IMG/VR virus record: IMGVR_UViG_3300005589_000747
Coordinates: 1-44,942 of that record
DNA from: a virus
Direction: 5' to 3' (one strand)
Length of the DNA stretch: 44,942 nucleotides
A program made the position numbers and the translations under genes. Each line of letters starts with the position of its first letter. The stretch's first letter is position 1. The notes beneath the pieces are model-generated. The model was not told the DNA's origin. It searched no databases and saw nothing but the letters and a program-made list of their open reading frames with translations. This document shows, one piece after another, positions 1-44,942 of the stretch.

Positions 1-1206
1 TCATGACTGCTTTTTGCCTGATTTCCCCCTGCCTGAAAAATTCAGCCTCTTGTTGGCTCTGGCCACCATGTCGTAGGCGTCGGCCTTGATCCATTTGGAA
101 TAGTGCTTGTGCAGCATGGCCGTGCTGCTGTGCCCCAGCTGCTTGGCCACCCACTCGAGTGGCATTTCAATAGATAGCATCTGGCTGGCGAAGGTGTGCC
201 TGCACTGGCCAAGACCCAGATAGCGAACGCCTGCTTTTTTGAGGTGTGCGATCCAGGCCTCGCGCAGGGTTCGATCGCTGCAATGGATCCGGTCTGTATT
301 GGAGTTGTGGAATACAAACCTTACTTTCTCGGTTCTGATTGTGCGGTTGTCTCGCTCCGTAACATCGATGGATATCGGTGGCAGTTTGGCCGTCAGCTTT
401 TGCTGCGCCTTCAGCGCCTCCAGCGCCGGCGCCAGTAATTCCACCTCCCGGGTGGAGCGCCTTGTCTTTGTCGCCTTGAATGGTCCGCGCACTCTGGCCC
501 GTTTGAAGTGGACCACGCCTGCAGAAAGATCGACATCCTCCCAGGCGAGGGCAATGGCCTCTGATACCCTTGGGCCAGTCCATAGCATGAACTTGAACAG
601 GTTCAGCTCCTGGACCATGTTTACAGCCGGTGGGGTAGTCAGGATGGTGTCTATTTCAGACCTGTTCCAGACCTCCGGATCCGGCATGTCCGGCAGGCGG
701 ATATTGATTCCGGTGGTAGGGTTGTGGGACCCTGGGTTCCTTTTTTGATATAGGTCGTAGACCTGACTGAGTATGGCGAGTGTTTCCTTGATGGTTTTGG
801 ATGCCAGCTTGTCCAGGTCGTTGCTGATCCAGTTCTCAATATCGATATAGTCGACCTGGTCAGCCTGGCGGTGTCCGAACTTTGGCTTGATGTAGCGCTG
901 CGCCATGCCTTCATAGCCGTTATAGGTGCTGGCCGCAGTGCGCTGCTTCTTGATCTCCAGCCAGATATCAAGATAGTGGTTCAGGGTGTTTTCTATGAGC
1001 CGCTTTGAATTTGGGAAGTGGCGGGCATAGTTGAATGTGCCGGTATTAATCTCATGGTGGATCAGTTCAACCAAGCGTCCGGCATAGGCGATGGTATCCG
1101 GTGTCGGTTCACCTGGTAGGGGTTCCCGGCACTTCTTGCCATCATAGGGGAAATAGACCCGCACCCGCTTGCCGTGGATCTCCACGCCAGGTGGCAGACT
1201 GTTCAT
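1..1206 (-). CDS. int: Tyrosine site-specific integrase
   Basis: A 401-residue phage integrase that would recombine attP with the 3' end of a tRNA-Ser gene. The N-terminal 60 residues look like the Arm-binding (DUF3596-type) domain. A SAM-like core-binding domain follows at about 70-165 and the catalytic domain at 180-375. Visible catalytic residues are R213 (in TGPRVSE), R336 (in CRHTFAS), H359 (in LGHSS) and Tyr369 (in HYSKW). The usual HxxR box is CRHT, so its first His is replaced. The gene is complete, with its stop at the first bases of the window, and it reads outward towards the missing left attachment site. A 55-residue gene lies immediately upstream, probably on the same transcript. 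Confidence 0.95.
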   Translation of the reverse strand: MNSLPPGVEIHGKRVRVYFPYDGKKCREPLPGEPTPDTIAYAGRLVELIHHEINTGTFNYARHFPNSKRLIENTLNHYLDIWLEIKKQRTAASTYNGYEGMAQRYIKPKFGHRQADQVDYIDIENWISNDLDKLASKTIKETLAILSQVYDLYQKRNPGSHNPTTGINIRLPDMPDPEVWNRSEIDTILTTPPAVNMVQELNLFKFMLWTGPRVSEAIALAWEDVDLSAGVVHFKRARVRGPFKATKTRRSTREVELLAPALEALKAQQKLTAKLPPISIDVTERDNRTIRTEKVRFVFHNSNTDRIHCSDRTLREAWIAHLKKAGVRYLGLGQCRHTFASQMLSIEMPLEWVAKQLGHSSTAMLHKHYSKWIKADAYDMVARANKRLNFSGRGKSGKKQS

Positions 1207-4723: not shown

Positions 4724-7390
4724 CTATGCACTCTTAAAAACCCAACACTTGACCGTCTTGGGTCGACTGTCGGTATTGCTCCTGCTCCAGATAGCAGAGG
4801 CCACCGGTTTGATATCGATGAACTTGAACCGCTTGCTGGTCTTGAGGTGTTTTTTCAGGTCAGCCATCAGGCAGGGCAGGTTCTGCTTCTTTTCCATGGC
4901 CACTTGTTGAAAGTGGTTCAGGTTGATGGCGATGCTGTCATCGCCCTTGGCATGGTTCAGCAACGGCAGCAGGTGGCCGGCGTCGTCCAGGTATTCGAAG
5001 ATGTCCCAGAACTCCTGCACGAACGGGTGATCGCTGTTGATGGCGCGCTGCCGGTCCATGGCCATCTGTTCCAGGGTGTCATGGGCGGCGGCTACCGCTC
5101 CGGCGGGTAAGGGAACAACAACCGCCAGGGCATCCACCAGGGCCATCAACTGGCTGTGGTTCTTGGCCAGTCGCACGGTTTTGACCTCATCCAGCCCCAT
5201 CAAGGCTCGCTCATAGGCCGTGGCGTTCTCCTTGATTATCTTCAGCACCGGGCTCTCTTTTCTGGCGGCATCGATGAGAAAACCGGACAACTGCTCCATG
5301 GGGGTCTGTTCCAGGGCAACGGCCAGGTTACGGGTCTCTTCGCTATGGGCGGCCCGGGTAAAGGTCATGTGGACGATACGCTCAAGGATGGCCTGGCTGG
5401 CGTTCACCGGTGCGTTCTGGCTGATGACGATGGTGCCCCGGAAGGGCGGCTCGTAGGTTTCATTGCCGCTGTTCTTCATGCCGCGGCTGCGCACGCTGCG
5501 CCCGTTATAGGCGGTTTTCAGTTCGTCCCAGTCGAAGGATTTTCCCTTGCTGCTATCCTCACGGTCCGACTCAATCAACACGATCGGCATGTTGGACACC
5601 TGGGCCATGTTGCGCGCCCGGGCGGCCATGGTGGACTTGCTGGGGTCAAACCCTTCATAGTCACGCCGCCCGACCAGCTTCCATAAAAATTCAATCAGTG
5701 TGGACTTGCCGGCGCCAGGCTCACCGACGATCTCGATAAAGGGAAAGCTCTTGTGGTGAGCGCGGATCTGCTCGGCGAACAGACTGCCCATCCAGAAGGC
5801 CAGGGCGACAATACCCTGTGCACCAAAACAGCGGTAGAGCTGATCAATCCAATCGGTTTTGTAGTGATCCCGGTTGGCGTTGATATGCAGGGATACCGAT
5901 TGATTGAGCGATTTAATGCTCAGCCTGCCCATATCAAAGAAGTCCTCATCGTTCAGTCTGAACAGTTCACCCTCCTTGATGGCGATATCGTTGTAGACGT
6001 AGCAGCCGTGCTCCTTGGTGTAACCGACGAAATCAACGGTCTGCACCGTCTTGATGTTGTAGAGCTGGTCTTTCATGATGCGGTCCAACTGCTGACTGGA
6101 GCCGGTAAACACAGACCCGGCGGCAATCGACAGCAGACGCTTCTTGAACTCGCTGGCGCTGCTCAGTTGTGAACCGGTGAAGGTATTCTTCACCGCCGCG
6201 CCGCCGTGTGGAAAGCGTACCCGGGCGTAGTACCAGGACTCATCGGTGACCGGGTTGGCCTGGAAATAGAGAAACTGGGGATAACAGTTGGCAATCTCGA
6301 TAATCGCGTTGCTCTCCTTCAGCGCCTGCTCTTTGATCTGCTCCTCGGTCAGGCCGGTGTCACGGTCCTGCAGCTGCTCTTTCGCCTTGTGGAACTTGTC
6401 GATATTCAGGTTGAACCACTTCAGCCGGTTGTTGTATTCAAAGGGGAATTCGGTCCGGTTGTCGTGCTCGTACATCAGCAGCGCTTTTTCGGTGGGAGAC
6501 TGGGCAATCAGTAGTGCCCCGCGGTAGCGGTATTCGTCCATCAGCCGGCTATTCAGGCGCCCGGTCTGGTGTAGATCGTTCCAGTCGGTTTTCTTGACCC
6601 CTTGCGGGATGATGGCGGCTGCTGTCTCAAAACTCTCGGCGCGCATCCGCTCGATGTGCTTTTTGATGTACTTGCGCCCGGCCTTGTCATTATCCAGCGC
6701 CAGCACCCAGGTGATGTTCTGACCCTTGTAGGACTCCAGCTGCTTGTCCGGGTAATTAACGCAGGAGAGCAGCGCCACCGCCTTGAACCCGTTCAGCATC
6801 AGGGCCACGGCATCCAGACAGGCCTCAACCATGTAAACCGTGTCGCCCTCATTGATCACCATGCCGGGTGGTTGCCACCAAAGGCCGCGATGGCTGCCCT
6901 TGAAATGGGCCTTGCGCTTCTCCTTCTCGCCCGTTTCCGGGTCGATCAGCGTCACCTCTTCGACAAACCGTTCCATGTAGACCGAGCGCGCCCCATCGAT
7001 ATAGAAGCGCACCGTGGCGGTGCCTTTATCGTTGATCGCGTCCGGGTGCCAGAACTTCCCCTGTTCATACCACCCCTTGATGCGCGCTAGCTCAAACCCG
7101 CGCTGCAGCTGCAGGTAGGCGTCTGCGGTGGCGTTGGGGTTGGACTCGGTTGGCTTGTACCTTTTATTAAACCCCTCGAACACCTCCGGGTAGAGCTCTT
7201 TGGCACGCCCCTCCCAGCCGCAGTTATTCTCCCGGCCGCAGCGGATGGTCCATGGATTTTCAGTCCGGGTGAACAGCTCCTTTTTATCGCAGCTGGGGCA
7301 GCGGCCAGACTGTAACCACTCACCGCGCTCTTTCAACCCATAATCCGCAATCAGCCGGCGCTTTACTTCATTGAGTGTGTCTGGGTTCAT
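4724..7390 (-). CDS. Toprim primase-helicase (phage replication protein)
   Basis: 888 residues. A zinc-binding primase-type N-terminus has C31, C34, C51 and C57. A Toprim domain follows (VEACLDAVAL, then ALDNDKAG near residue 233, giving the acidic triad). An ATPase domain near residue 558 has Walker A GEPGAGKST, followed by IVLIESDRED. The combination indicates a bifunctional enzyme that primes and unwinds the phage origin, replacing the rolling-circle A protein used by P2. Its ATG overlaps the stop of the J-domain gene (ATGA), which fixes the start. It is the last gene of the early operon and ends convergently with the cargo block. Confidence 0.9.
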   Translation of the reverse strand: MNPDTLNEVKRRLIADYGLKERGEWLQSGRCPSCDKKELFTRTENPWTIRCGRENNCGWEGRAKELYPEVFEGFNKRYKPTESNPNATADAYLQLQRGFELARIKGWYEQGKFWHPDAINDKGTATVRFYIDGARSVYMERFVEEVTLIDPETGEKEKRKAHFKGSHRGLWWQPPGMVINEGDTVYMVEACLDAVALMLNGFKAVALLSCVNYPDKQLESYKGQNITWVLALDNDKAGRKYIKKHIERMRAESFETAAAIIPQGVKKTDWNDLHQTGRLNSRLMDEYRYRGALLIAQSPTEKALLMYEHDNRTEFPFEYNNRLKWFNLNIDKFHKAKEQLQDRDTGLTEEQIKEQALKESNAIIEIANCYPQFLYFQANPVTDESWYYARVRFPHGGAAVKNTFTGSQLSSASEFKKRLLSIAAGSVFTGSSQQLDRIMKDQLYNIKTVQTVDFVGYTKEHGCYVYNDIAIKEGELFRLNDEDFFDMGRLSIKSLNQSVSLHINANRDHYKTDWIDQLYRCFGAQGIVALAFWMGSLFAEQIRAHHKSFPFIEIVGEPGAGKSTLIEFLWKLVGRRDYEGFDPSKSTMAARARNMAQVSNMPIVLIESDREDSSKGKSFDWDELKTAYNGRSVRSRGMKNSGNETYEPPFRGTIVISQNAPVNASQAILERIVHMTFTRAAHSEETRNLAVALEQTPMEQLSGFLIDAARKESPVLKIIKENATAYERALMGLDEVKTVRLAKNHSQLMALVDALAVVVPLPAGAVAAAHDTLEQMAMDRQRAINSDHPFVQEFWDIFEYLDDAGHLLPLLNHAKGDDSIAINLNHFQQVAMEKKQNLPCLMADLKKHLKTSKRFKFIDIKPVASAIWSRSNTDSRPKTVKCWVFKSA

Positions 7391-37384: not shown

Positions 37385-37407
37385 CGCAGTTCTCCCCCCG
37401 CCACGCC
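37385..37407 (-). other. Putative cos site (P2-like)
   Basis: Minus-strand sequence starting GGCGTGGCGGGG and ending ACTGCGCGC corresponds closely to the left end of the P2 genome, whose cohesive end starts GGCGAGGCGGGGAAAGCAC and continues TGCGCGC. The orientation relative to Q is also as in P2. It lies between the Q terminator and ogr. The remaining bases of this 240-bp gap (37274-37510) show nothing else. Confidence 0.72.
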
Positions 37408-37510: not shown

Positions 37511-37768
37511 TTATGCAGTTTGCTGCAGTGATTTCTTCACTTTTTCGGTATCAATGTGAGTTGATATCGGGATGGAAATTGACGGGTCTGGTAGCGCGGA
37601 CGGACTCAATGTTCTGACTGGCGATTGATAGAAAACACCAGTCCACCCGCATTCAACATTAGAGCAGGCGGCGGTGATCTCTCTGCACATCGGGGATAGT
37701 TGCTGGCTTCTTTTAACGGTGCAATTTGTATGACAGTGCGGGCATTGTGTAATGGTTGGGCGGGCCAT
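37511..37768 (-). CDS. ogr: Ogr/Delta-family late transcription activator
   Basis: 85 residues from MARPTITQCPHC; the start was chosen for GGAGT upstream, not the earlier ATG. Zinc module CPHC-x22-CSNVEC is exactly the C-x2-C-x22-C-x4-C of P2 Ogr. Ogr links RNA polymerase alpha subunit to late promoters. Unlike P2, where ogr follows D, it lies on the Q/cos side. Target sites may be the palindromes at 25011 and 34241. Confidence 0.88.
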   Translation of the reverse strand: MARPTITQCPHCHTNCTVKRSQQLSPMCREITAACSNVECGWTGVFYQSPVRTLSPSALPDPSISIPISTHIDTEKVKKSLQQTA

Positions 37769-38319
37769 CAATAAATACTCCATGATATTTAAGGTGCGTG
37801 CTGTATCGTTCTGATTCTACTAGAAAAAATAATATTTTCAGCAATAAAATCCCCGGTCGGTCATCGGAAAAAGGTGATACGGGTAAATTACACGCAAATC
37901 ATGTGTAACCAATTGATATTCATATTAAAAATAATTACCCGAAAAAGGTGGTAAAAGGTGATCAAGAAGGTAATTAATCGTATGTTACTGAATAATAAGG
38001 ATTAATAAATATACAATTATCACTATACAAAAAGGTAATCAATTACCATTTAATCACCAAATTATCACCTTTCTGATTCATTGAAATTAGTGCGAAAAAA
38101 CATAAACTTGCATCAAGTTCCGTCGCCTGATTACCATTATCACCTTTTTCCGGCTATGCCTCGTGTTTTCGGATCGGACTGCCATACTGGCGGCCGTTGC
38201 TGTGATACCCATATAATGCTGGGACCATCTTGGGACCAATGCTTTGCGCGATCTAATGAAATGAAAAACGTAACTAACTGATTTTTAATGTAATAAAAAT
38301 ACAGACATCTATCATGCAA
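37769..38319. repeat. Attachment-proximal repeat cluster (no gene)
   Basis: This 550-bp A+T-rich gap has no credible gene. It contains about a dozen copies, on both strands, of AAAAAGGTGATA-like or GGTAATT-like motifs (for example 37868, 37942, 37952, 37965, 38029; inverted at 38051, 38062, 38129, 38137). The outermost copies form a 15-bp perfect inverted pair, CGGAAAAAGGTGATA at 37865-37879 and its complement at 38138-38152. TGGGACCA is directly repeated at about 38220 and 38231. Best reading: integrase or excisionase arm sites of attP. Confidence 0.7.
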
Positions 38320-38344
38320 GGTTCGAATCCCTGTCTCTCCGCCA
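38320..38344 (+). other. Right att site: 3' end of a tRNA-Ser gene
   Basis: GGTTCGAATCCCTG is a tRNA T-arm, followed by the acceptor strand TCTCTCC, discriminator G and CCA. G73 and a CTCTCC acceptor indicate tRNA-Ser. The T-stem 5' side (CAAGG) has one mismatch and no tRNA body precedes it, so this is the duplicated att core and not a complete gene. The intact gene should lie just left of the window. Confidence 0.88.
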
Positions 38345-38756
38345 ATACAAAGCATAATTACTATGCTAATCAGATGGTTAGGCAAGGATGCCATCTATCG
38401 GTCCCCCAGTCAGTCCCCCTTTTTGTTTCAGTTCGATGGTGTAGCCGGGTAATTCATAAGACCTGCAGCCGGTGAACTGATCCACCCATCTGCCCAGATC
38501 CACCGGCCAACCGGCAACCCCGCAGCCCTACATATCGAATCCAGGCATAGGGGGGGAGTATCGGGGGGAGGGGGCCGGGAATCCGGGTTTGTTTGATGTG
38601 TAGGGGATCTACTCCCCGGATCCAAATAAAAATTTGAAAATATTTTTCCAGGTGGGACCGGTCGATGGGTGGGCTGGTATTGTGGTTGCGTTTTACAGTG
38701 GAATTCTGCATTCTGAATTAAGTTCGTTATTCCGTTTTGTGAATTAAAGGATTTCG
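38345..38756. other. Non-coding left end of second element, G-rich tract
   Basis: About 410 bases without a credible gene. TCCCCC is repeated at 38402 and 38415. At 38550-38579 runs of seven, six, five and three G separated by 6, 1 and 2 bases could form a G-quadruplex on the plus strand. An AAAGGATTTCG leader precedes the next ATG. Confidence 0.5.
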
Positions 38757-39293
38757 ATGAAAACGTATTCAGACCTCACCAAAATTTACGGAATCAACAA
38801 CCCAGGCGATTTGATGGAAAAACTTGGGGTTAAGTACGATGCGTATGAACAGCGCTATGAGGTGAAGGATTGGTATTTTAAATCACTTGATGAGGCGTTG
38901 TCTTTTGGCCATCGGCTCAAGATTCTCCCGGGATGCTCACCTGAAGAGGGAGGGCACAAGATCGAACAATACGTGTCGCACCCCAAGAAAAACCATGACC
39001 CTGATTACTCACCTTATCCGATTTTTAGCCGAAAGCAACTCGCCTGGATGGGGTTGATAACGGGTGCCCTGCTGTTAATCCTACTGAATGTTGAATTCTC
39101 CCGTAGTAGATCGCTGATAGAGCAATTCGTTTATCAATTCTTTTCATACAGTTCGAGAAAAACCGCTTTCTGGATTACGAATGCAACCGCTGTCGGTTTG
39201 GTTTGGTCTTTGAGAGTGCATTTAGGAGCGCTCTTCGCATTTGTCGTTGGGGTATTCCTAAACCTTGTCAGTCTATTCGCAAAAAAGGTTTAG
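38757..39293 (+). CDS. Hypothetical membrane protein (accessory gene 1)
   Basis: 178 residues with AAAGGA before the ATG. Residues 1-95 are soluble (SDLTKIYGINNPGDLMEKLG; YEQRYEVKDWYFKSLDEALS), resembling a small ligand-binding or DUF domain. Two or three membrane spans follow (LAWMGLITGALLLILLNVEF; FWITNATAVGLVWSLRVHLG; LFAFVVGVFLNLVSLFA). It reads opposite to the satellite operon. No function recognised; accessory genes at this end of satellites are often anti-phage, which is inference. Confidence 0.75.
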   Translation: MKTYSDLTKIYGINNPGDLMEKLGVKYDAYEQRYEVKDWYFKSLDEALSFGHRLKILPGCSPEEGGHKIEQYVSHPKKNHDPDYSPYPIFSRKQLAWMGLITGALLLILLNVEFSRSRSLIEQFVYQFFSYSSRKTAFWITNATAVGLVWSLRVHLGALFAFVVGVFLNLVSLFAKKV

Positions 39294-39339
39294 ACACCTC
39301 CACTAGGGGCAATGCCGGGGATTAAGAGGTAATAGAGCA

Positions 39340-39708
39340 ATGCGTATATTTCTCGGATTACTCTCGGTTATTTACATTGCCTTGAGCGGTGCTGTCGCTG
39401 GTGTAGTTGTAGTTCTTGGCATTGGGCTCGTTGTATATGTGGCGGTATGGGTGATGCTACTGGGCGGGTTTGCTGATGCAATCAACCTATTCAAAACTTC
39501 AAGCCCAGTATCCGCCGGTGATATTGCCGCAGCACTAGCGAAAATACTTTTTGCAATACCCGTGGGCTTCTTGATTGGATCTATCACTTACAGCATCTTT
39601 GACAAGATAAGGCATTCATGGACGCTTCTTCCATATACAACGATGTTTGAATCCGATGATGAACGCATGAAGCGGGTACGGAAAGAAATGGGATACGATA
39701 ACGAGTAA
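39340..39708 (+). CDS. Hypothetical membrane protein (accessory gene 2)
   Basis: 122 residues. Two spans at the N-terminus (FLGLLSVIYIALSGAVAGVV; GLVVYVAVWVMLLGGF), one central (LFAIPVGFLIGSITYSIF), then a charged cytoplasmic tail with DDERMKRVRKEMG. AAGAGGTAATAG lies upstream. It follows accessory gene 1 by 46 bases and is probably cotranscribed. No family recognised. Confidence 0.75.
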   Translation: MRIFLGLLSVIYIALSGAVAGVVVVLGIGLVVYVAVWVMLLGGFADAINLFKTSSPVSAGDIAAALAKILFAIPVGFLIGSITYSIFDKIRHSWTLLPYTTMFESDDERMKRVRKEMGYDNE

Positions 39709-39709
39709 A

Positions 39710-40090
39710 TCACCTGGACTTCTTCCACATCCTTCTAGCCGCCTCCGCAACCCGCCGTTTCCCGGCCTCGGTCTTCGGTCCCGTAGACAGGCCACCATGT
39801 AGCCGGCATTTCCCGTTCCTCGGCCGGTCGTTCTCGCGGTCCCATACAGGCTTTGCTTTACAGCGGCCACCGGCCCGGGTCTTGGCTCCACAAGCCGGAC
39901 GTTGAGATTTCGGGGTGACTTGGGTTGCCTCGCGGTTCGCATCCCCCCGGGCCTGTTTGTCAGCCAGCCGGGCATCCACCCACTGATCGACCTGATCCGG
40001 GCTCATGTGTTCGATCTGGGCCTTGTCGGCTTGGCTTAAATGGCTGCCGATATGGGCAGCGAGAACACCGCTCTTACGCTTATGCGTCAT
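39710..40090 (-). CDS. HGGxSTGPKT-motif protein
   Basis: 126 residues. A C-terminal motif, CGAKTRAGGRCKAKPVW then CRLHGGLSTGPKTEAGKRR, has Cys-x8-Cys ... Cys-x2-His, probably zinc-binding. The HGG-x-STGP-K/R-T motif is widespread in small phage and transposon-linked proteins of unknown role, often near terminases. It overlaps the small-terminase gene by 11 bases and ends the satellite operon. Confidence 0.82.
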   Translation of the reverse strand: MTHKRKSGVLAAHIGSHLSQADKAQIEHMSPDQVDQWVDARLADKQARGDANREATQVTPKSQRPACGAKTRAGGRCKAKPVWDRENDRPRNGKCRLHGGLSTGPKTEAGKRRVAEAARRMWKKSR

Positions 40091-40682
40091 CGGTCAAAAC
40101 CTCCCCCTCGAAGGTTCTTCCCCGCAATCGCTCCACTCGCTGCTGTGCCTCCCGCATAGCCCCGGTAATGTCTACGGTCACGCCAACCTCGACCCTCGCC
40201 TTGTTTCCGTATCGGTCACGGTTCCACACCTCCAGAAGGTATTGCCGGGTCTTCACCCGGAGCGCATCGCGTTGTATATCGTTGGGGATTTGCGAGTCGG
40301 TGCCGTCGGAGATGTCGAGCAGTTGATCCTCGATGAGTTCTGCACCCAGCGACTGGGCATCCCGGTACAGGTTCAGCCGTTCAATATCGTCATGTATCCA
40401 CCGGCGAAGGGTTCCGGGGTCGATGCTCCGATCCCGACAGAAGGCGGTCAGGCTCTTTCCGTTACGCAGATACCCCAGCAGCCCGCCCAGATCGTCCCGG
40501 CTGAACTCGGGCCGGGGTGCCAGCCATGCCGGGAGATCAGGGGGCAGATTGACCGGCGGCAAGGGTGCCTTTGCCGTTGTTGGGGTGCTGGACTGTCCTT
40601 GTTGCTGGGTATCCACTGTGTCGGGGGGCTGGGTAGTGGCCACATTGCCGGGATGCCCTGGTTGCTGGGTAGATGATCCCAC
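40080..40682 (-). CDS. Terminase small subunit-like protein
   Basis: 200 residues from a GTG with GGAGGAAC. The first 55 residues are Gln/Pro/Thr-rich. A DNA-binding helix-turn-helix (SLTAFCRDRSIDPGTLRRWI) is followed by helices typical of Sf6 gp1-like small terminases (ALRVKTRQYLLEVWNRDRYG, then VGVTVDITGAMREAQQRVER). No large subunit is nearby. In satellites such a protein redirects helper packaging to satellite DNA. Confidence 0.75.
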   Translation of the reverse strand: MGSSTQQPGHPGNVATTQPPDTVDTQQQGQSSTPTTAKAPLPPVNLPPDLPAWLAPRPEFSRDDLGGLLGYLRNGKSLTAFCRDRSIDPGTLRRWIHDDIERLNLYRDAQSLGAELIEDQLLDISDGTDSQIPNDIQRDALRVKTRQYLLEVWNRDRYGNKARVEVGVTVDITGAMREAQQRVERLRGRTFEGEVLTDDA

Positions 40683-40760
40683 GGATGTTCCTCCAAGTCG
40701 TTAATTGGTTCGTGTGTGCGGGGTATGGGGTTTCCTGCACCCCATACCCCCGGCTTCCAC

Positions 40761-41399
40761 TCATCCGCCTTTGCCCTGTCGGGCCTCTGCCAAGTTCGCA
40801 AGCGTACCGATCAACCACGGATCATGCCCAAGGGTAGTTTGAAGCAGGGCATCTTTCAGCCATGGCAGCCGAACGGCCAGCCTATCCACTTCGGACTGTG
40901 CTGCTTCCACAATCGAATCCAAACGATCACCATAGACCTGTTCGAGTTGAGCAACAGACTGTGCCCGGCTGAGTTCATAGGCTTCGGCGTCCACTGGCTG
41001 GGAAACATGCTTGTTCCAAACATTCGCAAACTCTGACCCAAGGTCAGCCGGGATACCTTCAGCGGCAAACGCCGCCATTACCGATTGCTGTTCAGTAAGC
41101 TCCATTGCATCTGTTCCGGGAGCTGGGGCGGGGAGTTTGTAGTCGACTCCCCGGACCTCTTGACCGTACAGATCTGTGTGAGGTGTGTGCAGGTCGAACT
41201 CGGGTTGTTCGGTTTCACTTGAAACCGTTTCCCCGGTGGTCTCTTCCGGGAGATTCCCGTCTTCGATGGCCCAGTTTTTGAGCTGCTGCAACTGTTCGGG
41301 GGTGAAGGCATCGGAACCGATCTCGATTGTGGAGCCTTCGCCCTCAGTTGCCCCAATGCCGGGTTCATTCATTCCTGTTTCTGCTGTCATGTCGTTCAT
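40761..41399 (-). CDS. Acidic scaffold-like protein
   Basis: 212 residues. The N-terminal 100 are acidic and Glu/Thr/Pro-rich (disordered); the C-terminal 110 are helical, with YGDRLDSIVEAAQSEVDRLA and LLQTTLGHDPWLIGTLANLA. The latter resembles the end of capsid scaffolds (L-x-x-T-G-L-G-N-x-P-x-L-I-x-x-L-A). A scaffold or size-redirecting factor is possible. Start overlaps the coiled-coil stop by ATGA. Confidence 0.6.
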   Translation of the reverse strand: MNDMTAETGMNEPGIGATEGEGSTIEIGSDAFTPEQLQQLKNWAIEDGNLPEETTGETVSSETEQPEFDLHTPHTDLYGQEVRGVDYKLPAPAPGTDAMELTEQQSVMAAFAAEGIPADLGSEFANVWNKHVSQPVDAEAYELSRAQSVAQLEQVYGDRLDSIVEAAQSEVDRLAVRLPWLKDALLQTTLGHDPWLIGTLANLAEARQGKGG

Positions 41400-42016
41400 G
41401 CTGATTTCTCCAGGTAAGATTTAGCGGTTTCCAATTTTTCAGCAAGGGAAGGGCGGCGTTCTAACTCCCACTGGCTGAATGCTCCACCGATCACGACACC
41501 ATGACGCCACAAGTTTTCCTGAAGCGCGTCGAATATATCGCGGGGGCCGATCAGTGTTGCAGTCGGGTCGATCTGTCCGGGGTAGCCCTGGCGGACCTCC
41601 TCGGATTGATCTTGTAACTGGCGCATGGACTCAGCAAGAGCGGCGGTTTGCTTCTCGATCTGGCGAGCAAGCTTGACCCGTTCCGCTGCAAGGTTCAGGG
41701 CAGCCTGTCGGGCTGTCTCCCGCTCGTTCAGGGCCTCCTGGGCCTCCGCATCGGCCAGACGTTGACGGGCACCGGTCAGAGCGCCTTGGGCGTCCTGGAG
41801 GGTCTGCCGGGTTGCCTCTGCTGCCTTGCGGGCTTTGGCAAGCTCTGCCTGCTGAATGGTGCCTTCTTCATGGGCCAACAGGGCGGCATTCAGCTCCGCT
41901 TCAGCGGTGGCCGCTTGATCGGTTGCCTGTTCGAGTTTGGTCTCCAGGTTATCGACGGTTGCCCGTGCCTGTTCGAGGGTGGGGAGTTTCGATTTGAGCA
42001 TGTCGGTAAATCTCAT
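41396..42016 (-). CDS. Long coiled-coil protein
   Basis: 206 residues from MRFTDMLKSKLPTLEQA. Residues 10-140 form a heptad-rich coiled coil (AEAELNAALLAHEEGTIQQA; ARKAAEATRQTLQDAQGALT). The C-terminal 50 are a small globular tail (DIFDALQENLWRHGVVIGG). No recognised family. It is the first gene after the origin-like segment and is translationally linked to the scaffold-like gene. Confidence 0.75.
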   Translation of the reverse strand: MRFTDMLKSKLPTLEQARATVDNLETKLEQATDQAATAEAELNAALLAHEEGTIQQAELAKARKAAEATRQTLQDAQGALTGARQRLADAEAQEALNERETARQAALNLAAERVKLARQIEKQTAALAESMRQLQDQSEEVRQGYPGQIDPTATLIGPRDIFDALQENLWRHGVVIGGAFSQWELERRPSLAEKLETAKSYLEKSA

Positions 42017-42314
42017 TTTTACAATCTCCTGAGTTTTGCCGAGTTTCCGACCCGGTAGCGGTTAAACCCCAATGGGGTGTTCGATGGTGGCTTGGTAAAG
42101 TAACGAACCTGAGCGCGATACTTTTGTGCGATACTTTCATACCCCCCAATACTTCCGATACTTTCATTACCTTTTGGGCTATTTTTGCCGGTCTGCTCTC
42201 TATACCCCCCCCAATACTTTAGATATGTTGATACTTTTCGATGTATTGGCGTATTGGAAGTATTGGGGGTACCTAAGAACCCCACAAAAACCCTCATCGA
42301 ACACCCCACTGGGT
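42017..42314. repeat. Iteron cluster, probable replication origin
   Basis: Non-coding segment directly after rep. (G/A)ATACTT recurs in direct order at 42117, 42130, 42148, 42157, 42213 and 42230 and in inverse order near 42243, 42251 and 42259. CCCCCAATACTTCC (42143-42156) and its complement (42257-42270) form a 14-bp inverted pair. GGGGTGTTCGATG (42074-42086) and its complement (42295-42307) form an outer pair. An origin just after pri-rep is the arrangement known in PICIs. Confidence 0.78.
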
Positions 42315-44207
42315 TCATGTTTCAAACAGCACATAGCTGCCCCGGCCCGTCTTAATGACTTCATCTTGCTTAACCATGCGACCCAGTTGCAGCTTTACGG
42401 TGTGGTCCGGCAACCCGGCAGCCTCGGCTATCTCTTTCGGACTGGATGCACCTTCCCGCATGGCGTTAACAATGGATGTGCGTGTGTCACTGCGCATTAC
42501 CTCGGCAGCCTCCTGCCGACTGGCAAGGGTCCACATTTTGTCCACGCCTTTAATCAGGGGAATGGTCGAACTGTCTTCGATGTCTCTGCCGTTGATGTGC
42601 AGCTCCATCCCGGCGTTGCCGTGCATTAAAGTGAAAATATTATCCACGCCACCGGATAGGCCATTGGTCCCGGATACCGAGTCCAGAGCGTCACCGCCGC
42701 CCTTGTTTGCATGGTGAACGACTAGAATTGCCACATCGGGGAACATGGCCGATACGGTCTTTAACTGCTTCCCCACTTCATAGTCAGCTTCATAAACCGA
42801 CTGGCTCCCTCTCCGGCCTTGTCGGACCTGTGCGAGGACATCAATCACGATCAGACGAAGGTTGGGGATCTCGTCCATTTTGGCTTGCAATGCAGTCTCC
42901 AACCCATCACCCAGCATCGGGGCGTGGGTCATGTAGTAGAACTTGCTGTGCAGTTCTGCATCGGACAGCCCATAAGACTTGATCAGCTTCTTTGTGCGAT
43001 CGTGCAACCGACGTTCACTGTCCTCCAGCGCCATATACAGGACAGCGGCCCCGCTCGTCTGTAAACCGAATACAGGCCGCCCAGCAGCCACCATCAGGGC
43101 CATAGCGTGGACAAGCCACGACTTCCCCTGTTTGGGTCTGCCAACAAGAAGAGAAACACCCGGGGGGATCAGGTCCGATACTACCCAGTCGATGGGGTCA
43201 AAGATCCGGGTAGACAACTCGCCCCACGACTTATGGCTGGTTTCGCTTGAAGGTGTTTTATGTGATGCGACCACATCCTTAAACAGCTCTTGTGGATCAG
43301 GTGCGGGGCGGGTCCATCCTGCATCCTTGGCAAGTTTGAAGAGTGTTCCGAGTGAAATCCCGTCACCAGATTTGAAGCTGCCCCACTGTTTAGACATTTC
43401 CCGATCATCGGGATACTTTGCGCTGCCCTGGCTCCACTCGTCCCACAAATAAAACCCGGTATCCGGTGAGCCAGACTTAACCCCAGCATCATGCAGGCCC
43501 ATGCCTACCCGTATCCATTCATCACGGGAACAGTCGGGAGATATACACCCTAATGCCTCTTTGACCTGCTGCCAGTCAGCAGACAGATCCGAGTTTGTGA
43601 TTACCGGCTCCCGGGGTGCGGCAAGATCCTGCCAGACCTTCAACAGATCATCCGGCAGTGTGGGCATTGCATTTAACCAATCGAACAGCTCAATGTGATC
43701 GGGTTTTACCCATCGGTAGGGCTGTTGGGTCTCCGGGTGGATACTGGGATAAACCAAATCTTGAACCGTCAACCCGTTTGAGGTGGCACAGCGAAACTCT
43801 AGAATGCACTCCCGGTCAATAATGATCTTTTGCGATACAAGCGGCTGTGAGCCTTCAGGGAGCCGATACAACAGTTTCCCGTGTCCAGGTTTGCCGGAGT
43901 CGATCTTAACGGCTCCAGGGGCCTGATAAAGCGCGTCCATATCAATTCCGCGATCAACCAACCACCGGGCAGCTTTCAGCCAATGGTCTATGTCAATACT
44001 GACTACGCCACTGTAGGCCAACGCAAGCCCGACATTGCCGGTCCAGTTGTCGGGCAGATAGCAGTTTTCGGCACGGTTCCAACCGGCCTTACGTGGTCCC
44101 TTCGTGCCTGGGGGAACTGGTATCAACTTCCAGCCTAACAGGGCATAGGTGACGATGGTCGATTCGTTGACCGGCTGCAACCAATCAGGTAAAGTTTCAA
44201 TTGTCAT
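42315..44207 (-). CDS. Primase-polymerase/RepA-type helicase (Pri-Rep)
   Basis: 630 residues from MTIETLPDWL, with AGGTG 10 bases upstream. The N-terminal prim-pol domain has YALLGWKLIPVPPGTKGPRK and the metal-binding SIDIDHW near residue 70. A PriCT-like linker follows (RDEWIRVGMGLHDAGVKSGS). The hexameric RepA/AAA_25 ATPase has Walker A GRPKQGKS near 358, Walker B LRLIVIDVLAQV and VHHANKGGGD. The C-terminus is a winged helix (SSPKEIAEAAGLPDHTVKLQ), possibly an iteron binder. It should initiate element replication at the adjacent origin. Confidence 0.9.
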   Translation of the reverse strand: MTIETLPDWLQPVNESTIVTYALLGWKLIPVPPGTKGPRKAGWNRAENCYLPDNWTGNVGLALAYSGVVSIDIDHWLKAARWLVDRGIDMDALYQAPGAVKIDSGKPGHGKLLYRLPEGSQPLVSQKIIIDRECILEFRCATSNGLTVQDLVYPSIHPETQQPYRWVKPDHIELFDWLNAMPTLPDDLLKVWQDLAAPREPVITNSDLSADWQQVKEALGCISPDCSRDEWIRVGMGLHDAGVKSGSPDTGFYLWDEWSQGSAKYPDDREMSKQWGSFKSGDGISLGTLFKLAKDAGWTRPAPDPQELFKDVVASHKTPSSETSHKSWGELSTRIFDPIDWVVSDLIPPGVSLLVGRPKQGKSWLVHAMALMVAAGRPVFGLQTSGAAVLYMALEDSERRLHDRTKKLIKSYGLSDAELHSKFYYMTHAPMLGDGLETALQAKMDEIPNLRLIVIDVLAQVRQGRRGSQSVYEADYEVGKQLKTVSAMFPDVAILVVHHANKGGGDALDSVSGTNGLSGGVDNIFTLMHGNAGMELHINGRDIEDSSTIPLIKGVDKMWTLASRQEAAEVMRSDTRTSIVNAMREGASSPKEIAEAAGLPDHTVKLQLGRMVKQDEVIKTGRGSYVLFET

Positions 44208-44223
44208 TTTTGAAAACACCTCA

Positions 44224-44256
44224 AGCGTCGAGTATTCAGGACTCGGCGCTTTTTTT
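44224..44256 (+). terminator. Hairpin between Rep and its upstream gene
   Basis: AGCGTCGAGT and ACTCGGCGCT arms with a 7-base loop and a run of T on the plus strand. It overlaps the end of the 150-residue gene and lies just above the Rep ribosome site. As a plus-strand terminator it would block antisense transcripts; in minus-strand RNA it could affect Rep translation. Confidence 0.5.
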
Positions 44257-44688
44257 ATCAATACGATTCAGAATCAACCGTTCAAGTCGATCCAGGAACA
44301 TATGGGTTGTGCGGTTCGCCCTCTCGAACTCAGCTCTTGCGCCGTTGATCACTTCGAGCATCTCGGACTTGCCGAATATTGGCGGCTTGCTCCAGGCGCG
44401 ATCAGACAACCATGTGCTGATGGTTTTCCAGCAGGGATGCTTAGGGTCTATCCACATATTCCCCGCCAGCCTGTCGAACTGGACCATCAGCTCGCAACAT
44501 TCACGCTTGGCCGGGTTGGTTGCGCGGATGCGCCGGGTCTTGAGATACACGAGCAATGCATGTGCCCGGTAATAGATACTCATGCAATGCCGGGCAGTCC
44601 TGATACGATCACGGCGGTTATCAGGGCCAGTAGTGCCGCAATCTCGATCGGTGGGGGTGGTAGGTACATGGATGTTGTCCTCGTTCAT
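44236..44688 (-). CDS. Hypothetical satellite protein
   Basis: 150 residues, basic, with several Cys/His (RDCGTTGPDNRRDRIRTARH; TNPAKRECCELMVQFDRLAG). Helical C-terminal half (EVINGARAEFERANRTTHMF). No recognised family. It overlaps the AlpA-like gene by 4 bases (ATGA) and its stop lies in the hairpin before Rep. Probably cotranscribed with alpA and rep. Confidence 0.7.
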   Translation of the reverse strand: MNEDNIHVPTTPTDRDCGTTGPDNRRDRIRTARHCMSIYYRAHALLVYLKTRRIRATNPAKRECCELMVQFDRLAGNMWIDPKHPCWKTISTWLSDRAWSKPPIFGKSEMLEVINGARAEFERANRTTHMFLDRLERLILNRIDKKSAES

Positions 44689-44942
44689 GCCACGCCTCCG
44701 TTTATGATCGCCTCGGCTGCGCGTTTCCGTTCGATATGGATCTGGTCGACCAACTCGCGTACCTGGCCGTCGGTTGCTCCGGCAGCGCGTAAAGCTAGAA
44801 CTCTGTCGATTTCATCCGAATACCATGCAACGGTTTTCTGGCCGTGCAGTTTGAACCCGTTGGGGAATAGCCCGTCCTTCTGGAGTTGCCAAAGAACAGT
44901 ATTCGAGATGGGCACATCTCGCTTGAAGATGATCTTTCTCAT
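44685..44942 (-). CDS. AlpA-like excisionase/regulator
   Basis: 85 residues, complete; its ATG is the last codon of the window. A MerR/AlpA-type winged helix: ISNTVLWQLQKDGLFPNGFK then KTVAWYSDEIDRVLALRA, with the W-Y-S-x-x-x-I pattern of AlpA. The C-terminus is a charged helix (QIHIERKRAAEAI). In Gram-negative satellites AlpA activates the replication module upon helper infection; here it heads the rep operon. Confidence 0.82.
   Translation of the reverse strand: MRKIIFKRDVPISNTVLWQLQKDGLFPNGFKLHGQKTVAWYSDEIDRVLALRAAGATDGQVRELVDQIHIERKRAAEAIINGGVA

Follow-up and report, generated by a model that had tools for sequence, protein, structure and literature searches.

Gene content of the window

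The DNA analysed here (the window) is the entire viral record IMGVR_UViG_3300005589_000747, 44,942 nucleotides in length, which ends at position 44942 with the start codon of an AlpA-like gene. From position 1 to about 38.3 kb it consists of a P2-like prophage in reverse orientation, in which tail genes, a gpM-type small terminase subunit (TerS), coat, scaffold, large terminase and portal genes lie up to 37086. From 38320 to the record end, a 26-nt tRNA end is followed by two rightward genes for predicted membrane proteins and then by a leftward operon in the order AlpA-like gene, 150-aa gene, Pri-Rep, repeat-rich gap, coiled-coil, scaffold-like, TerS and HGGxSTG-protein genes. The individual features are as follows.

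1–1206, minus strand: tyrosine integrase of the P2-like prophage (phrog_1, E 8e-54)
4724–7390: primase of the P2-like prophage (phrog_1139)
37389–37407, minus strand: candidate P2-like cos site of the prophage, beyond its portal gene (15/19 to the annotated P2 cosL)
37511–37783: Ogr-type gene of the P2-like prophage
38320–38345, plus strand: duplicated 3' end of tRNA-Ser(TGA), 26 nt, matching the tRNA-Ser(TGA) 3' end in locus L005 (Sedimenticola) and in contig C21 of genome G084
38346–38650: att-proximal end of the putative satellite, carrying a GGTCCCCC/AGTCCCCC pair of sites (38400 and 38412) and sharing 78–87% identity with the tRNA-side end of the sister
38757–39293, plus strand: accessory gene, 178 aa, two predicted membrane helices; the sister element has no counterpart
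39340–39708, plus strand: accessory gene, 122 aa, three predicted membrane helices
39710–40090, minus strand: HGGxSTG-domain protein, directly downstream of TerS (NCBIfam NF041373, E 3e-16; 80% identical in the sister)
40080–40682, minus strand: TerS of the Sf6 gp1 family, unaccompanied by a large terminase (PF20901, E 5.5e-14; phrog_1482, E 5.6e-18; 73% identical in the sister)
40761–41399, minus strand: scaffold-like protein, 212 aa (80% identical in the sister), with C-terminal similarity to podovirus scaffold-position proteins
41396–42016, minus strand: predicted coiled-coil protein, 206 aa (69% identical in the sister; dN/dS about 0.29)
42017–42314: putative replication origin, repeat-rich, in which an inverted repeat of 26 nt (42068–42093 / 42288–42313) encloses AAAGTATC / CCCCCAATACTT repeats
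42315–44261, minus strand: Pri-Rep, with Prim-Pol, PriCT_2 and a RepA/DnaB-like AAA helicase (AAA_25), from Pfam and PHROG matches
44236–44688, minus strand: small conserved gene, 150 aa, sharing 4 nt with the AlpA gene; its counterpart at the same position of the sister is about 41% identical
44685–44942, minus strand: AlpA-like regulator/excisionase (PF05930, E 0.002, just under the curated cut-off; phrog_2790; 93% identical in the sister)

All of the genes named in the initial annotation, together with the repeats downstream of rep, were located at 38.7–44.9 kb. Its statement that the right-hand 6.6 kb carry no virion gene or large terminase also held, as Pfam and PHROG profile scans recognised neither in 38346–44942. 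The tRNA-Ser it had placed at the junction stood in part: the 26-nt 3' end is present, but ARAGORN found no complete tRNA gene in the window. Alignment with the sister relative places the true start of Pri-Rep probably near 44207. Directly downstream of this gene, the repeats at 42050–42313 include an 8-mer that occurs four times, a count reached in 2 of 500 shuffles. For the two accessory genes, PADLOC returned no meaningful system match.

A complete sister element in Sedimenticola

A genome scan with the 212-aa protein (one genome per species) retrieved a single relative, from Sedimenticola selenatireducens DSM 17993, whose best-matching segment is 85% identical. This protein is encoded in a complete element of about 8.6 kb in the type strain (NZ_ATZE01000026.1; L005, 396–9000), whose order is integrase, two AlpA genes, a counterpart of the 150-aa gene, Pri-Rep, repeat-rich origin, coiled coil, scaffold-like protein, TerS, HGG protein, accessory gene and tRNA-Ser(TGA). 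The tyrosine integrase (L005, 574–1797) matches the P4 type (PRK09692), the AlpA of the window is the counterpart of the second of the two sister AlpA genes, and the single accessory gene differs from those of the window. The att core TTGGCGGAGAGACAGG occurs at about 396–411 of L005 and again at the tRNA end, with serS near the tRNA-Ser(TGA). In the related genome G089, the stretches that match L005 8990–10502 and 181–410 adjoin directly at an intact tRNA-Ser(TGA), overlapping by 22 nt of the core; this natural empty site fixes the ends of the sister element, and thus its size.

The initial annotation had expected an integrase and a second tRNA-Ser 3' repeat to the right of 44942 if the window holds a satellite, and capsid, portal, large terminase and tail genes if it holds an ordinary prophage. 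The right end of the window's own element lies beyond the record. In the complete sister element both the integrase and the repeat are present, and no capsid, portal, TerL or tail gene was recognised. For the window itself, the satellite reading predicts that the first ~2.5 kb past 44942 would contain CCTGTCTCTCCGCCAA together with genes for a tyrosine integrase and an AlpA protein.

The block of coil, scaffold-like, TerS and HGG genes is about 77% identical in DNA between the window and the sister, with protein identities of 69–80%. The dN/dS ratios are about 0.16–0.29 for this block and 0.05 for AlpA, and such values (about 0.05–0.3) indicate that the conserved satellite genes are real and under purifying selection. 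In contrast, Pri-Rep (36% identical overall) aligns well only in its Prim-Pol and PriCT part, the helicase domains differ, and the repeats downstream of rep, in the same place, are AAAGTATC and CCCCCAATACTT in the window versus GGTAAAACT in the sister. It is therefore likely that rep and ori were exchanged as a cassette while the packaging block was retained. Paired GGGGGACC-type sites, 12 bp apart, are found at both ends of the sister and, in the window, solely at 38400 and 38412; they look like integrase arm sites. Further relatives were sought in viral contigs with the Pri-Rep, TerS, scaffold-like and coil proteins, which yielded one distant primase only, and across 210 genomes of the order the scaffold-like profile matched Sedimenticola DSM 17993 only.

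Probable tandem insertion at tRNA-Ser(TGA)

The tRNA end of the P2-like prophage itself falls to the left of the record, and its insertion site was assessed through related integrases. Two of these adjoin tRNA-Ser(TGA), one 74% identical to the integrase of the window (L058) and one 51% identical over residues 158–325 (L053). On this basis it is very probable that the P2-like prophage is flanked by tRNA-Ser(TGA) on one side and by the satellite on the other. The same evidence supports a reading of 38320–38345 as both the right att of the prophage and the tRNA-side att of the satellite, in agreement with the shared core that had been proposed from the first inspection. Both elements of the window appear to use tRNA-Ser(TGA) as a hotspot for unrelated elements, and their adjacency looks like ordinary accretion. 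A tandem explained in this way says little about the choice of helper.

A third, distantly related integrase lies directly after the same tRNA-Ser(TGA) in G084 (L021, 9383–10471; contig C21). The end of the window's P2-like prophage (37840–38160) is AT-rich, with GAAAAAGGTGATA / TATCACCTTTTTC units repeated in direct and inverted orientation, and just inside the P2-like att the tandem pair TGGGACCATCTTGGGACCAATG (38222–38245) resembles arm sites for the integrase of this prophage. A relative of this prophage occupies about 77300–112000 of contig C14 in G084 (L009, L017 and L018) and is 88% identical over the terminase–portal stretch; its homologue of the cos candidate matches P2 cosL at 18/19. 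The integrase of the window had no match in the flanks read around the G084 prophage, which probably lies at another site than the prophage of the window. The satellite is absent from G084, though this genome carries the P2-like prophage at such identity.

Predicted packaging genes of the satellite

The TerS assignment is supported by a match to Sf6 gp1 structures (E 1.3e-5), and tblastn found no TerS relative on plasmids. For the scaffold-like protein, tblastn returned no relative in phages at E <= 0.01. With hmmscan, both copies of this protein, that of the window and that of the sister, weakly matched phrog_458 and phrog_3742. Members of the phrog_458 type are encoded between the portal and the major head protein in phiV10, AF, Shamal and HTVC024P, these four proteins being assigned to the family by inference from a common 'protease' label and sequence similarity, and the HTVC024P member is annotated as a capsid assembly protein. 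When the scaffold-like protein was compared with seven scaffold-position proteins by hhalign, a weak match was obtained over the C-terminal ~48 residues (p 2.6e-4, probability 42%), whereas control profiles of TerS, coil and HGG gave p values of 0.17–0.66; the phrog_3742 family gave no profile match to the scaffold-like protein by the same method. The structure search that had been recommended for both proteins was uninformative: AlphaFold models built from two-row alignments reached a pLDDT of only 49 (scaffold-like) and 45 (TerS) and were unusable, and Foldseek returned nothing significant.

The CpmB protein of SaPI1 and the scaffold of its helper have similar C-termini, through which both bind the coat protein (PMC5644958). 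The C-terminal match observed here resembles this pattern, which suggests, by analogy, that the scaffold-like protein may be a capsid-redirecting decoy.

Comparison with known satellites

Gram-negative phage-inducible chromosomal islands (PICIs) have been described with the order int, alpA, fused pri-rep, ori, packaging genes and accessory genes (PMC6092414). The satellite shares this gene order, with int seen in the sister, and a specific att site, and terS is likewise carried by some PICIs. With regard to the integrase and its site, the sister element has int, att repeats and an empty site, and the window has the att and arm sites, with int expected beyond the record. The satellite part of the window further contains an AlpA-type regulator and a fused pri-rep followed by ori, and no full complement of virion genes with a large terminase was recognised in these 6.6 kb or in the complete sister. 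Membership in the PICIs is thus supported by gene order, regulator, replication genes and absent virion genes. Unlike the Gram-negative PICIs, the satellite carries scaffold-like and HGGxSTG genes with TerS, is smaller (8.6 kb in the sister), has a Pri-Rep with a Prim-Pol domain, and was found here only in Sedimenticola-type bacteria. EcCICFT073 and PmCI172 possess a capsid homologue, whereas no capsid gene as in capsid-forming PICIs was recognised in the satellite part of the window or in the sister.

SaPI1 of Staphylococcus (PMC5644958) similarly encodes its own TerS and an assembly protein that resembles the phage scaffold at its C-terminus. The two differ in host, in regulator (Stl in SaPI1, AlpA here) and in sequence, the TerS and CpmA/CpmB of SaPI1 being unrelated to the proteins of the satellite. 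Moreover, the cited residues of CpmB end at 72, compared with 212 aa for the satellite protein, for which redirection is putative. P4-like satellites share with the element an AlpA/Vis-type regulator, a primase-helicase, the P4-type (PRK09692) integrase match in the sister and an adjoining P2-like phage, but the satellite carries its own Sf6-type TerS and no shared cos (best match 13/19, against 15/19 between the neighbour's candidate and P2 cosL), and its proteins gave no match to the Delta/Ogr-, Sid- or Psu-like families. PICMIs (PMC10803314) are comparable in their small size, AlpA and minimal content; their site is fis rather than tRNA-Ser(TGA), and they are described as lacking capsid-remodelling genes, in contrast to the TerS and scaffold-like genes found here. 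The packaging block of the satellite is unusual.

Alternative interpretations

Taken together, the anatomy of the element and the complete sister with its empty site strongly support the satellite reading with which the analysis began. We consider it likely that the element is a PICI-like satellite of Sedimenticola-type gammaproteobacteria with a podovirus-type helper, and that only its int-side end is missing from the window. It could be argued that these genes are instead the inert remnant of an ordinary podovirus-like prophage stripped of its late genes, as TerS and the scaffold-like gene are phage late genes and the right end falls beyond the record. This is very improbable, since the same compact order without TerL, portal and capsid recurs in another genome, where the element is intact and its att ends are precise, the genes are open and under purifying selection, and the AlpA, Pri-Rep and ori layout is that of a satellite. 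Equally improbable is a P4-like relationship in which the satellite was inserted beside its own helper, the neighbouring P2-like prophage. Adjacency and the common att core would favour it, but the neighbour's TerS and scaffold show no similarity to those of the satellite, its cos is absent from the satellite, no Ogr/Delta-like gene was found among the scanned satellite proteins, and the sister occupies tRNA-Ser(TGA) without this prophage. The P2-like neighbour was accordingly rejected as the helper on the basis of the unrelated TerS and scaffold and the missing cos copy, which strengthens the earlier caution that it need not play this role.

Within the preferred PICI-like reading, the function of the 212-aa protein is less certain. 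One tentative proposal is that a Gram-negative satellite lineage independently evolved a SaPI1-like kit, comprising an Sf6-type TerS and a scaffold decoy in which just the coat-binding C-terminus of the podovirus protein is retained, with which it shrinks or captures the capsids of podoviruses infecting Sedimenticola. It is also possible, though short of probable, that the 212-aa protein does not act as a scaffold that redirects capsids, and that piracy proceeds by TerS alone while the coil and the 212-aa protein serve otherwise, for instance in interference or DNA binding. The short extent and modest probability of the C-terminal match and the uninformative structure models are consistent with this account, as is the sufficiency of TerS alone in some PICIs (PMC6092414). 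Against it stand the two PHROG families weakly matched by both copies, which occupy the scaffold position beside portal and coat genes, and the control profiles, which found nothing among the same scaffold-position proteins.

Proposed mechanism and candidate helper

Gene content, the boundaries of the sister and the sharing of the site are read directly from the sequence, and from these we propose the following course of events for the PICI-like satellite. To judge from its relatives, its own tyrosine integrase would insert it at the 3' end of tRNA-Ser(TGA) via the paired GGGGGACC arm sites. Once a helper phage is active, the AlpA proteins would turn the satellite on, and Pri-Rep may replicate it from the repeat-rich putative origin directly downstream of rep. 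The Sf6-type TerS would then take the place of the helper's small subunit, leading the helper large terminase to package satellite DNA in what is probably a headful mode. The scaffold-like protein and the coiled coil could enter helper procapsids via a C-terminal coat-binding end, and the former may redirect capsid size in the manner of CpmB of SaPI1. The packaging genes suggest theft of capsids from a different, podovirus-like phage, and the helper is probably a podovirus with the same TerS/scaffold type rather than the P2-like neighbour. Across the order, the TerS profile matched two genomes, the sister itself and one with a marginal 37-residue match, and yielded no helper candidate otherwise.

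On this reading the known range of PICI-like satellites would come to include the sulfur-oxidising genus Sedimenticola, for which a literature search returned no satellite reports, with the sister as a compact and complete example in a type strain. The two elements have the packaging block in common but diverge in helicase, origin and accessory genes, making the block a good test case for the swapping of satellite modules. If the scaffold-like protein does redirect capsids, it would represent an independent Gram-negative parallel to CpmB of SaPI1.

The best phage match of TerS is found in the lake podovirus DSL-LC05 (L004, OR003940, 32822–33277; 36.5%), and the primase of the same phage, which spans the record origin, is the best phage match of the Prim-Pol part of Pri-Rep (45%), hinting at the type of phage that shares the gene pool of the satellite.
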